This document shows, in pieces, positions 2,820 to 63,944 of a stretch of DNA of 64,000 nucleotides. The position numbers were made by a program, and so were the translations under genes. Positions within the stretch are counted from its first letter, which is position 1. Each line of letters starts with the position of its first letter. The stretch is from Acinetobacter sp. XH1741 (lineage in GTDB: Bacteria; Pseudomonadota; Gammaproteobacteria; Pseudomonadales; Moraxellaceae), in assembly GCF_041021895.1 (NCBI RefSeq), contig NZ_CP157428.1, forward strand, positions 682,001 to 746,000, given 5' to 3'. A model generated the notes under the pieces. It made no database searches. It saw only the letters and a list, made by a program, of their open reading frames with translations, and had not been told where the DNA came from.

Positions 2820-5800
2820 ACAACATTGCACACTTAGAACCAAAAGTTCTGTCGCGTCACGCGATTTCTGCAGAACAGCTTGGTATTTGGTATATCCAAC
2901 GCCTTGAGCCAACTTGCAGTGCCTACAATATGGTGGTGGCCTTTGATGTAAAGGTAAACCAATCATTAGGCAACAAGCCGATGGAGATTTTAGAAGCAGT
3001 GATGCATGACTATCCGTTACTACGTGTAAGCATGCCTGCTAATGATCAGGGGATTGAGCAACTCATTTGGGATCGCGTATATCCTAATATTATTTTCTCT
3101 GATGCTCGTCATGTTGAAGCTTCTGATTTGACGCAATTGGTTGAACAAGATACCAAGCAACCATTTGACCTGACTCATCCACCATTGTGGCGTATTCATT
3201 GTTATGAGCGTGGTCAAAATCACTATGTGATTGCAGTTGTGATTCACCATGCCTTAATGGATTTCTGGTCGATTGGTTTGTTACTTCGTGATATCTGCAA
3301 GCGTTTTGGACTGATTACAGAGTCAAATGTAGTGAACGGAATCGAGTTCGCTCAGTATGCAGATAAGCAAAAGAGCAATGTGATTGATGATGCCGATGAA
3401 AGCTTACTCTTTTGGAAAAATGCGTTAAAGCATGCTCCACATGTGCATAGTATTCCGCTTGATTATCCACGTCCAGCTGTGCAGCAACATAAAGGCAGTT
3501 CGGTAATTTTTCGCGTGCCTGAGTCAGTATCGTCTGGTCTGGTGAACTTGGCGAAAGACTATGAAATTACGTTGTTCGGTCTTGTATTATCTGGTTTCTA
3601 TATTCTGCTGAACAAACTATCGAATGAAAATAATCTAGTCATTGCCACAGCAGTAGCCGGTAGACTTGAACGTTCTTTACGCAATGCGTTAGGACAGTTT
3701 GTCAACACAATTGCTCTGCATATAGACATAGATGCTGATCAGACCTTACGCCAATTTACACAGCAAGTACAGGAACAATTAAAACAGAGCCTCAAGCATC
3801 AAAAAATTGCTTTTTCTAAAGTGGTTGAAGCTGTCTCACCAAAGCGTGATGGCAGTATTAACCCATTGGCTCAGGTGGGAATGTTCTGGGAACGTCTAGG
3901 TGGTCTGGATGAGTTTAAAGAATTACTTTTACCAATCCAGAATTCAGCTACTTTAGCTGGTCAAGACCTGACGCTAGGAAGCTTTCCGGTTCGCCAGCAA
4001 GAAGGTCAATTAGATATTATGCTGGAAATGGGCGGTGAATATCAGGGCGAACTGGTTGGTGTACTAAAATACAACTCCGAAATATTTTCTGCGGAGTCTG
4101 CCGAGAACATGGTGCAACTACTGCAAGTTGTACTATCAGAAATGGTGGCTCATCCTGAACGTAAGCTCGTTGAGTTAAATATCACACCTGATTATGCGAA
4201 TAGCATCCAGCTAGGTTACCTACGTGGTCAGGTTACTGACTATTCTAGACATGATCTGCTGGAAATGATTCTGAAGCAGATTGATGCACGTGGTGATAAC
4301 CACGCTATGACTTCTAGAGATCATGCTGTCACTTATCGTGAGTTAGGTCAGCATATCGCTGGGATCGCTGAATATTTACGTGCACAGGGTATTGCCAATG
4401 GCGATCGCGTCGGTCTGATGTTAGACCGCACTGTACTATTGCCTGCGGCAGTTATCGGCATCTGGGCGGCAGGAGCAGCCTATGTACCTTTAGATCCTAG
4501 TTTCCCAAAAGAACGTCTACATACTATCGTAGAAGATGCTGCCCCTAAAGTGATCTTGACTCAAACTGAGTTGATGGATGCTCTTAACGTTTCTGTACCA
4601 CTTTTAGATATCAATCAAGCTGGTGTTGTGCCACTTGAGCAAGTGCGTGAGCGACTTGCCTTTGGTGATACTGCTTATGTGATGTATACCTCAGGTTCGA
4701 CAGGCAAGCCTAAAGGTGTGCGTATTGGGCATCCTTCAATGGCTAATTTCTTGCTGTCTGTGAATGATAGGCTACAAGCAACTCCCGATATGCAGTTATT
4801 GGCGATCACGACTTATGCCTTTGATATTTCGGTTGTTGAGCTACTGATTCCGTTGATGTACGGCGGTGTAGTGCATGTCTGCCCACGTGAGGTATCGCTA
4901 GATGGTAACTTGCTGGTGGACTATATGCAGGCGAAGTCGATCAATATTATGCAGGCAACACCAGCCTCTTGGAAAATGCTTTTAGATAGCGACTGGAACG
5001 GTATTCCGGGTATGGCTGCAATTAGCGGAGGCGAGGCACTCGATCCTATACTTGCAGAAAAACTTTTGGGCAAAGTGAGTTGTCTCTGGAATATCTATGG
5101 CCCGACCGAAACTACGGTATGGTCAAGTGCAGCCCACATCACCGATGCAAAATTGATTGATTTAGGTCAGCCAATGGCGAACACCCAGCTCTATGTTCTT
5201 GACGAACAACAGCGGTTGGTCCCACGCGGTGTTATGGGAGAGCTCTGGATTGGAGGAGATGGCCTAGCAATTGATTACTGGCAACGACCTGATTTAACAG
5301 ATGCACAATTCAGAACCTTACCATCTCTACCAAATGCTGGTCGACTCTATCGTACCGGAGATAAAGTCTGTTTGCGTATGGATGGACGTTTGACCCATCA
5401 CGGACGTCTGGACTTCCAAGTCAAGATCCGTGGATTCCGTATTGAACTGGGTGAAATTGAGAATGTTCTCAAACAGATCGACGGTATTACAGATGCAGTA
5501 GTGTTGGTTAAGACCACAGCCGACAACGATCAGAAACTGGTGGCCTATGTGACAGGGTCTGAGATTGATATGGCCGGTTTGAAAAAGACCCTGCAAATCC
5601 ATCTCCCAGCTTATATGGTGCCAAGTACGTTTATCCGGTTGGATGAATTTCCAATGACGGGTAGTAACAAAATAGATCGTAAGGCGTTCCCTGAGCCAGT
5701 GTTTGAACATAACAATGATTATGTTGCACCACGCGATTCGATCGAAATCGAGCTATGTACGACTTTTGAGCAGATCTTGTCAGTCAAGCGAGTGGGTATA

Positions 5801-63049: not shown

Positions 63050-63631
63050 TTATAGCGCACTTTTTAAATTCTTTTGATGATGTTTAATAGATCGAGCATA
63101 TTTTTTTGCTTTGTGACGTGTCCAGAAACTTCTCTCATAACCAGTTGGCCCAACATTATAATAAGCCGTGGCTTTGAACCAACTATCTGCGGTTTGATAG
63201 TAATGATTTAAAATATAAGCACCACATTGGATATTAGTAGATTCATCATATAAATTACCAGCGCAAGTTTGCTGCCAATAGCTTGGAATAATTTGAGTTA
63301 GTCCAACAGCTCCAGTTGGAGAACGGGCATTACTATTGTAGTTAGACTCTTGTCTGATGACTGCCGCGAGTAAAAGTGGAGGAACATTATATTTGTCAGC
63401 ACTTTGGATAATCAGTGGAGATAATCGATTCGCTGTACTCGGTGGAACGGAATAAGCTTTTTGTAAACCAGATGAGAGCTTATTTGAACGCCAAGAAAAT
63501 GAGCCGCTATTGGGACCTAAGCTTGTGCATCCCGTCATTATTGTCATTAAGGCAATAATAAAAAATTTGAGACTAAAGATGTGTAATTGTGTTGGTTCAA
63601 AACGATTTTGGGTTAAAGATGGGATAAGCAA
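63050..63631 (-). CDS. Lytic transglycosylase (SLT domain) lipoprotein
   Basis: 193 residues from a TTG at 63631. No ATG lies upstream before an in-frame stop, and the next ATGs (M29, M32) leave too short a leader. The lipobox is IMTGC (Cys35). The SLT domain (about 80-180) has VIRQESNYNS with the catalytic Glu, SPTGAVGLTQIIP, and KATAYYNVGPTGYE. It cleaves the glycan chain of peptidoglycan to form anhydro ends. Small size suggests an EmtA- or Slt-like accessory enzyme. Confidence 0.85.
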   Translation of the reverse strand: MLIPSLTQNRFEPTQLHIFSLKFFIIALMTIMTGCTSLGPNSGSFSWRSNKLSSGLQKAYSVPPSTANRLSPLIIQSADKYNVPPLLLAAVIRQESNYNSNARSPTGAVGLTQIIPSYWQQTCAGNLYDESTNIQCGAYILNHYYQTADSWFKATAYYNVGPTGYERSFWTRHKAKKYARSIKHHQKNLKSAL

Positions 63632-63752: not shown

Positions 63753-63871
63753 AAAAAACCCCGACATCCTGTCGAGGTTCCTTCGTATTCAGCTTTATGT
63801 AGCTAACTCCTGTCAACTACCGCTTCCTGCGTTCTTATTCTTCTTCAATGAGACATCCTGTCTCTCTATGA
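63753..63871 (-). ncRNA. Candidate CsrA/RsmA-binding small RNA (Rsm type)
   Basis: About 119 nt on the minus strand, with no ORF. Five GGA motifs occur: (1) in the loop of GAGACA-GGA-TGTCTC (63850-63864); (2) in CGC-AGGAA-GCG (63821-63831); (3) in an AGGA tetraloop on a 9-bp stem GTAGTTGAC / GTTAGCTAC (63799-63820); (4) in a single-stranded part (63779-63781); (5) in the loop of the terminator stem AACCTCGACA-GGA-TGTCGGGGTT followed by T6 (63753-63778). Motifs 1 and 5 read ACAGGATGT, the core of the known CsrA target. The -10 is probably CATAAT or TAATAT near 63877-63884. Size, motif number and terminator fit RsmY/RsmZ-like sponges. The 5' end is inferred. Confidence 0.72.
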
Positions 63872-63904
63872 TTCATATATTATGAAAAAATACTAAAGCT
63901 GAAT
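63787..63904 (-). repeat. 11-bp inverted repeat bracketing the small RNA core
   Basis: ATTCAGCTTTA at 63787-63797 and its complement TAAAGCTGAAT at 63894-63904. The outer arm lies near the -35 region, so it is only part of the RNA if transcription starts earlier than I place it. Confidence 0.6.
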
Positions 63905-63926
63905 ATCCGCAAATTACCGCAAGTTT

Positions 63927-63944
63927 TGTAGGTTTTTACTTACA
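63927..63944 (-). promoter_or_regulatory. GacA-type upstream activating box
   Basis: On the minus strand TGTAAG-TAAAAA-CCTACA, one base from the published GacA consensus TGTAAG-N6-CTTACA. It is centred about 64 bases before the inferred start of the candidate Rsm RNA. Confidence 0.7.

Follow-up and report, generated by a model that had tools for sequence, protein, structure and literature searches.

A putative GacA-activated decoy RNA of the Csr/Rsm type and its multi-copy family in Acinetobacter

The small RNAs RsmX, RsmY and RsmZ of Pseudomonas and CsrB and CsrC of Enterobacteria are untranslated, carry GGA motifs in hairpin loops, end in a terminator and are preceded by a box of the GacA/UvrY type. 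A locus near the end of a 64,000-nucleotide stretch of the Acinetobacter sp. XH1741 genome (here called the window) raises the question of whether such an RNA is also encoded in this genus, as an initial sequence-only reading had proposed. In A. baylyi a growth phenotype caused by loss of gacA requires csrA, and RNAs that sequester CsrA have been proposed as the link, with none named in the accessible text (PMC12455638). CsrA is necessary for growth of A. baumannii on rich medium (PMC12802169), and in the same species GacS/GacA influences metabolism, plasmid transfer and virulence, the effects of GacA being ascribed to direct promoter binding on the basis of in vitro work (PMC10746170).

Layout of the locus and chance expectation

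The locus is read from the minus strand, and its features are collected in Table 1. No open reading frame of at least 60 amino acids overlaps positions 63753-63869 in the list of open reading frames, which makes this segment a stand-alone candidate non-coding gene. The downstream neighbour (63050-63631, minus strand) encodes a transglycosylase SLT domain, with a Pfam score of 75.6 bits against a cut-off of 21.3, and the upstream neighbour, just outside the window, is a flavodoxin/FMN-reductase-like gene (L005, 6174-6734, minus strand). Five GGA motifs within about 119 nt, four of them in loops, had been described from the sequence alone, and they are indeed present at RNA positions 12, 43, 60, 89 and 101, the four in predicted loops each occurring as CAGGA. 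The same is true of the two copies of ACAGGATGT, located at 63861-63853 and 63772-63764, of the U-tailed terminator carrying a GGA in its own loop, and of the upstream box with the pattern TGTAAG-N6-CCTACA.

Table 1. Predicted features of the small RNA locus, in window coordinates
Feature	Position	Strand	Remarks
Candidate small RNA, about 117 nt	63753..63869	minus	5' end assumed 7 nt past the -10 element; 3' end placed at the U run
GacA-type upstream box, TGTAAG-TAAAAA-CCTACA	63927..63944	minus	centre some 66 nt before the assumed start
Weak -35-like hexamer, TATTCA	63900..63905	minus	17 nt before the -10 element; position inferred from the promoter profile
-10 element, TAATAT	63877..63882	minus	44 nt after the box
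Hairpin 1, loop ACAGGATGT, GGA at 63858-63856	63850..63864	minus	predicted fold; helix 1 covaries
Small hairpin 2, loop AGGAA, GGA at 63827-63825	63821..63831	minus	predicted; absent from the family consensus structure
Hairpin 3, CAGGA in loop, GGA at 63810-63808	63799..63820	minus	predicted; helix 2 covaries
Rho-independent terminator hairpin, loop ACAGGATGT, GGA at 63769-63767	63753..63783	minus	U-tailed
Fifth GGA, foot of the terminator stem	63781-63779	minus	poorly conserved

The densest CAGGA cluster of the window is found at this locus, with four copies within 100 nt, a number that none of 200 shuffles of the whole window and none of 5000 shuffled versions of the RNA attained. The occurrence of two ACAGGATGT in the window was equalled in 4 of 100 shuffles. 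The folding z-score is -6.5 for a segment of 143 nt and -4.7 for one of 110 nt, and the terminator supplies much of this signal. Other features are less distinctive. Among segments of 117 nt, 0.9% have five GGA, at least five appear in about 42% of cases when the RNA is shuffled, and the densest GGA run of the window sits elsewhere, near position 5356 on the plus strand; the bare GGA count was rejected as evidence, since base composition readily yields five. A lone match to the box was rejected likewise, since a box with one mismatch was present in 21 of 100 shuffles. The number of GGA motifs and a single box being unremarkable, the case therefore rests on comparison between genomes, where the combined evidence of promoter layout, covariation of predicted stems and loop conservation exceeds chance.

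A multi-copy family with a fixed promoter layout

A DNA search revealed three similar stretches in the same genome. The box pattern gave 11 rows, representing 10 places, against 1 for the reversed control, and led to four further genes with the same layout, whose boxes begin at C1:641110, 642291, 643039 and 297259. All five copies have a TANNAT-like hexamer (TAATAT, TATTAT or TATGAT) 44 nt downstream of the box. A covariance model built from the five transcripts, with the promoters left out, recovered the five genes at E<=6.1e-17, the next match in this genome being at 0.012. Three very similar copies lie within about 2 kb of each other (C1:640907-642964, equivalent to L009 4908-6965, minus strand), with two short ORFs between them.

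In a sample of 149 genomes of the genus, including that of the window, the model found matches in 146 at E<=0.01 and in 143 at E<=1e-5. The number of matches per genome has a median of 6 and a maximum of 15, with at least four in 129 genomes and at least ten in 23, although these counts run high, some matches lying on the opposite strand at the palindromic terminator; in one genome (G120) 12 matches were obtained at E<=1e-9. Three genomes of this sample (G032, G050 and G076) had no match and two others (G026 and G148) had matches at chance level only, while a laxer search of eight genus genomes yielded one match at 0.0019 in G050 and none in G076. The model itself accounts for at least part of this apparent absence, because G014 and G097, the two genomes with few or weak matches whose box sites were read, carry RNAs with the box and CAGGA motifs that are too diverged for it. 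A GacA of at least 261 bits is retained in the three genomes lacking a match as well as in four with few or weak matches (G014, G026, G097 and G148), and joint loss of the RNA and GacA was sought in these seven genomes and not found.

Beyond the genus, 40 of the 119 genomes of the family sample had matches, 24 of them Acinetobacter, and the 16 matching genomes from other genera reached a best E of 9.5e-4, which is about chance under a rough calibration. At E<=1e-4 the order sample was matched by the window's own genome alone (1 of 145) and by none of the 144 others, in searches that, like all those covering more than 40 genomes, used stricter filters by which weak matches are lost. The RNAs very probably constitute a genus-specific, multi-copy family, new within the known class of CsrA decoys. 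The sequence-only reading had supposed that homology searches easily miss such RNAs; within the genus this proved incorrect, the family being found both by DNA search and by the covariance model.

The promoter analysis used 98 of 111 matches (the 13 weakest were dropped) together with the window; 96 of these copies had 140 nt of upstream sequence, all distinct. A box with at most three mismatches in 12 positions was present in 92 of the 96, always 55-57 nt before the model start, among loci that are mostly best matches and under-sample weak copies. This distance is independent of the model, which saw no promoter sequence, and one of the four copies lacking such a box is masked sequence. When upstream sequences were shuffled as a control, 6.4% of 4800 had such a box at any position. 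The control with 140 nt of downstream sequence was not clean, 13 of 93 having a box with at most three mismatches and two having one with zero. A profile derived from 53 non-redundant promoters consists of a strong -10 element, a weak -35 element at a spacing of 17 nt and conserved linker positions, and on this profile the window's site, itself part of the training set, ranks first in the 64 kb by a wide margin (38.9, the next being -11.5). The exact box pattern was more frequent than its reversed control in 22 of the 24 genomes searched, with a small margin in G026, G097 and G102, and it did not exceed the control in the remaining two of these 24, G098 and G149.

The conserved linker of the family profile spans positions 20-35 after the start of the box, between the box and the -35 element, and suggests a second half-site or an additional protein contact. 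Outside the family, the sequence following the boxes at 926916 and 1005108 fits the promoter profile, with none of 2000 shuffles as good, and the fit of the box at 927364 is weaker, being equalled by 11 of 2000 shuffles. Two further boxes of the same genome, at 3309080 and 2942014, were dropped as candidate RNA promoters, having no fit to the profile.

The structure alignment comprised 35 transcripts, namely that of the window and 34 of the 38 selected. In the stems 14 of 23 pairs vary on both sides, and 98.0% of the cells are paired. On each of five pairing measures none of 500 shuffles was as high, and slid structures pair at 34-56%; these values carry a favourable bias, the structure having been predicted on the same alignment on which it was tested, and relatedness of the rows alone can beat such shuffles. 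The loops proved to be conserved in this alignment, with the GGA retained at loops 1 to 4 in 35, 35, 33 and 32 of the 35 aligned copies, respectively; among 10 close orthologs only 4 retain the fifth GGA. Free variation of the loops beside conserved flanks, named at the outset as evidence against a decoy, was not seen among close relatives.

Gene order is also informative. Among 15 loci fetched via the transglycosylase gene, the RNA lies upstream of this gene in 13, and no RNA match was found beside it in the other two (L056 and L060). In ten of the 13 the RNA is located 120 nt from the transglycosylase gene and has four CAGGA motifs and a matching box; among these close loci the transcripts are nearly invariant and the sequence upstream of the box drifts. 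In three distant syntenic loci, all on the plus strand (L057 2950-3074, L058 2971-3088 and L059 2964-3087), the RNA is about 0.9 kb from the transglycosylase gene and has a GGA at loop 1 and at one other place, with loops 3 and 4 lacking it, and no matching box was found; the features of these three RNAs suggest decaying or altered copies.

Partner proteins and competing explanations

The residues at the start of CsrA and R44 are of recognised importance for this protein. A single CsrA match, over the cut-off, was found in the window's genome; it starts with MLILTRRVGETLMIGD and has R44. The best GacA match contains a receiver domain and a LuxR-type domain and scores 267 bits (the NCBIfam cut-off is 280), against 82 for the next regulator of this genome. 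Scores of at least 261 bits were obtained in all 18 Acinetobacter genomes and of at least 245 bits in 23 of 24 genomes overall, the exception being a genome of another genus (G149, 104.5 bits). The best BarA/GacS match reaches 565 bits, with a curated cut-off of 890.

Taken together, the locus very likely encodes a GacA-activated decoy RNA of the Csr/Rsm type that titrates CsrA, and that is one of several additive copies. From these sequence features we infer GacA binding, CsrA binding and titration, as follows. Phosphorylated GacA would bind the TGTAAG-N6-C[CTG]TACA box, which lies some 66 bp before the start, and activate a sigma-70 promoter whose -35 element is poor; the resulting short, terminated RNA would present about four CAGGA loops, bind CsrA dimers and so free CsrA-controlled mRNAs. 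The decoy dose is probably the sum over several promoters, because five similar copies are present in the genome. The Acinetobacter counterpart of the Rsm/CsrB RNAs envisaged by the sequence-only reading has thus gained covarying stems, a fixed promoter and the presence of CsrA-, GacA- and GacS-type proteins, and differs from the original proposal in comprising five genes instead of a single one.

Three other explanations were weighed against a GacA-driven CsrA decoy. The RNA could be a CsrA decoy whose box is bound by some other response regulator of the LuxR/NarL type, and several further response regulators weakly match the GacA profile in each genome. This is nevertheless improbable, as the box agrees with the GacA consensus of Pseudomonas and the best GacA homologue scores far higher than any other regulator and is found throughout the Acinetobacter genomes searched. 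It is also conceivable that the transcript is a base-pairing sRNA of the Hfq type, in which the CAGGA loops would pair with CU-rich sites of mRNAs and any role of CsrA would be unimportant. Such a function is suggested by the box-bearing ABUWs076/sRNA99 of the same genome, which is strongly tied to Hfq, and by the promoter of Aar, the activity of which was 1.4-fold down in a gacS mutant of AB5075 (PMC11472050), so that GacS touches other sRNAs too. Four CAGGA loops on changing stems, one of them in the terminator, together with multiple genes, are however better suited to a protein decoy, and among six ABUWs names only ABUWs076 appears in the accessible main text of the Hfq RIL-seq study; base pairing as the main function is accordingly considered unlikely.

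The occurrence of several similar hairpin-rich copies in each genome would also be expected of a dispersed palindromic repeat that makes no regulatory product. Yet the layout of the promoter is fixed among the copies, which also have a terminator and compensatory changes and stay beside the same gene in close species. In addition, the family members of AB5075 are reported as expressed transcripts, which contradicts this explanation if ABUWs081 corresponds to the window locus, and a mere repeat is hardly credible.

Published transcripts and known systems

The RNA-seq study of AB5075 placed ABUWs005, 061, 081 and 083 in Group 3, a structural group of four members, and left ABUWs081 (also art75; 137 nt) without an assigned function; the terms csr and rsm have no occurrences in the accessible main text of that work (PMC5320573). 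ABUWs081 is very probably the window locus, a correspondence drawn from gene spacing and strand and not from sequence. It was placed there because the gaps between the ABUWs genes agree with the window genome: 195 kb in AB5075 against 181 kb here from 077 to 081, 97.8 kb against 102.9 kb from 081 to 083, and 345.6 kb against 345.8 kb from 083 to 005, the last value using what we take to be the length of the AB5075 chromosome. By the same gaps and strands ABUWs005, 081 and 083 very probably correspond to members of the family in the window's genome, and no counterpart of ABUWs061 was found there. The correspondence is not exact, as ABUWs081 was published with 137 nt against about 117 nt at the window locus, and one Group 3 transcript is listed for AB5075 where the window genome has three copies (the C1:640907-642964 area).

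Further transcripts of AB5075 coincide with GacA-type boxes outside the family. Two RNAs with such boxes (C1:926916 and 927364, or L010 at about 4917 and 5365, plus strand) follow recD and match ABUWs077 and ABUWs076; the Northern probe of the former fits with 1 mismatch and that of the latter with 2. The pair is flanked by recD (TIGR01447, over the cut-off) and a gene with a beta-lactamase-family domain, and similar pairs of boxes are present in all five other Acinetobacter genomes fetched for the recD gap. ABUWs076 (sRNA99) was the most prevalent sRNA in Hfq chimeras (PMC12802169). A predicted sRNA with unknown function, encoded between recD and ACIAD0400, was struck by mutations or lost by deletion in evolved A. 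baylyi (PMC11426457), and would be the same RNA as in the recD gap here. The ABUWs074 counterpart, a longer GGA-rich RNA, is located at C1:1005108 (L011, about 4109, plus strand), and the ABUWs074 Northern probe matches C1:1005253 exactly. This match, together with nearest named records from A. nosocomialis at 95% protein identity in a search from which close records may be missing, suggests that the window's species is probably A. baumannii. Northern blots of ABUWs074, 077 and 076 showed bands at the expected size (PMC5320573).

Like the family, ABUWs074 has a GacA-type box, a promoter fitting the same profile and a CAGGA terminator loop, and it carries eight GGA in 210 nt; unlike the family, it is longer and belongs to a separate sequence family missed by the covariance model. 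Counterparts with 8-9 GGA were found in G014 and G097, and RNAs of this type possibly represent a second, CsrB-like class of decoys. A wider proposal, which we hold tentatively and at somewhat less than even likelihood, is that GacA drives a dose-additive array of RNA promoters, comprising up to about a dozen CsrA decoys, ABUWs074 and the recD-gap pair including sRNA99. If so, post-transcriptional control by CsrA and by Hfq would both be set by one signal, and a large part of the effects attributed to direct promoter binding by GacA would be indirect. The RNAs described here supply candidates, promoters and a genus-wide model for the missing step from Gac to CsrA, and invite an explanation for the retention of decoys in so many copies.

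The sequence-only reading knew of no such RNA named in the genus. This remains valid as regards function, since no assignment of the RNA to the Gac/Csr circuit was found in the literature searched, coverage of which was partial, and no printed copy of any of three 13-letter pieces taken from the RNA or related RNAs was found in it. It probably does not hold for the transcripts themselves, since ABUWs081, very probably this RNA, had been listed and CsrA-regulating sRNAs had been predicted in A. baylyi. Two RsmA-regulating sRNAs, spanning 119 and 139 nt, were predicted in Acinetobacter ADP1 in 2017, in a study that cites an earlier prediction, from 2006, of CsrA-regulating sRNAs in A. baylyi (PMC5568370). 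The ADP1 predictions concern the same genus and the same proposed role as the RNA described here; they are given as gene numbers (ACIAD0018/0019 and ACIAD2750/2751), so that the comparison with the window locus is by description only, and the accessible text presents them without promoter, copy-family or genus-wide analysis (PMC5568370). A figure legend on A. baylyi also depicts a CsrB-like RNA binding CsrA (PMC12442408).

High copy number is not unique to Acinetobacter: although Pseudomonads are credited with four Rsm RNAs in a review (PMC8395346), Table 2 of PMC5568370 predicts 9 loci for P. putida and 10 for P. syringae. While the search of published lists returned ABUWs081, very probably the window locus, the search of Rfam revealed no sRNA family at the gathering cut-off in the window or in nine related loci, and relaxed thresholds gave nothing useful. 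The score of 10.4 bits with the Rfam RsmY model (RF00195), against a cut-off of 57, places the RNA outside that sequence family. Thus, unlike RsmX/Y/Z and CsrB/C, the RNA has no Rfam match and no strong relative outside its genus in the samples searched, whereas it shares the tested sequence features with RsmX, RsmY and RsmZ of Pseudomonas and with CsrB and CsrC of Enterobacteria.
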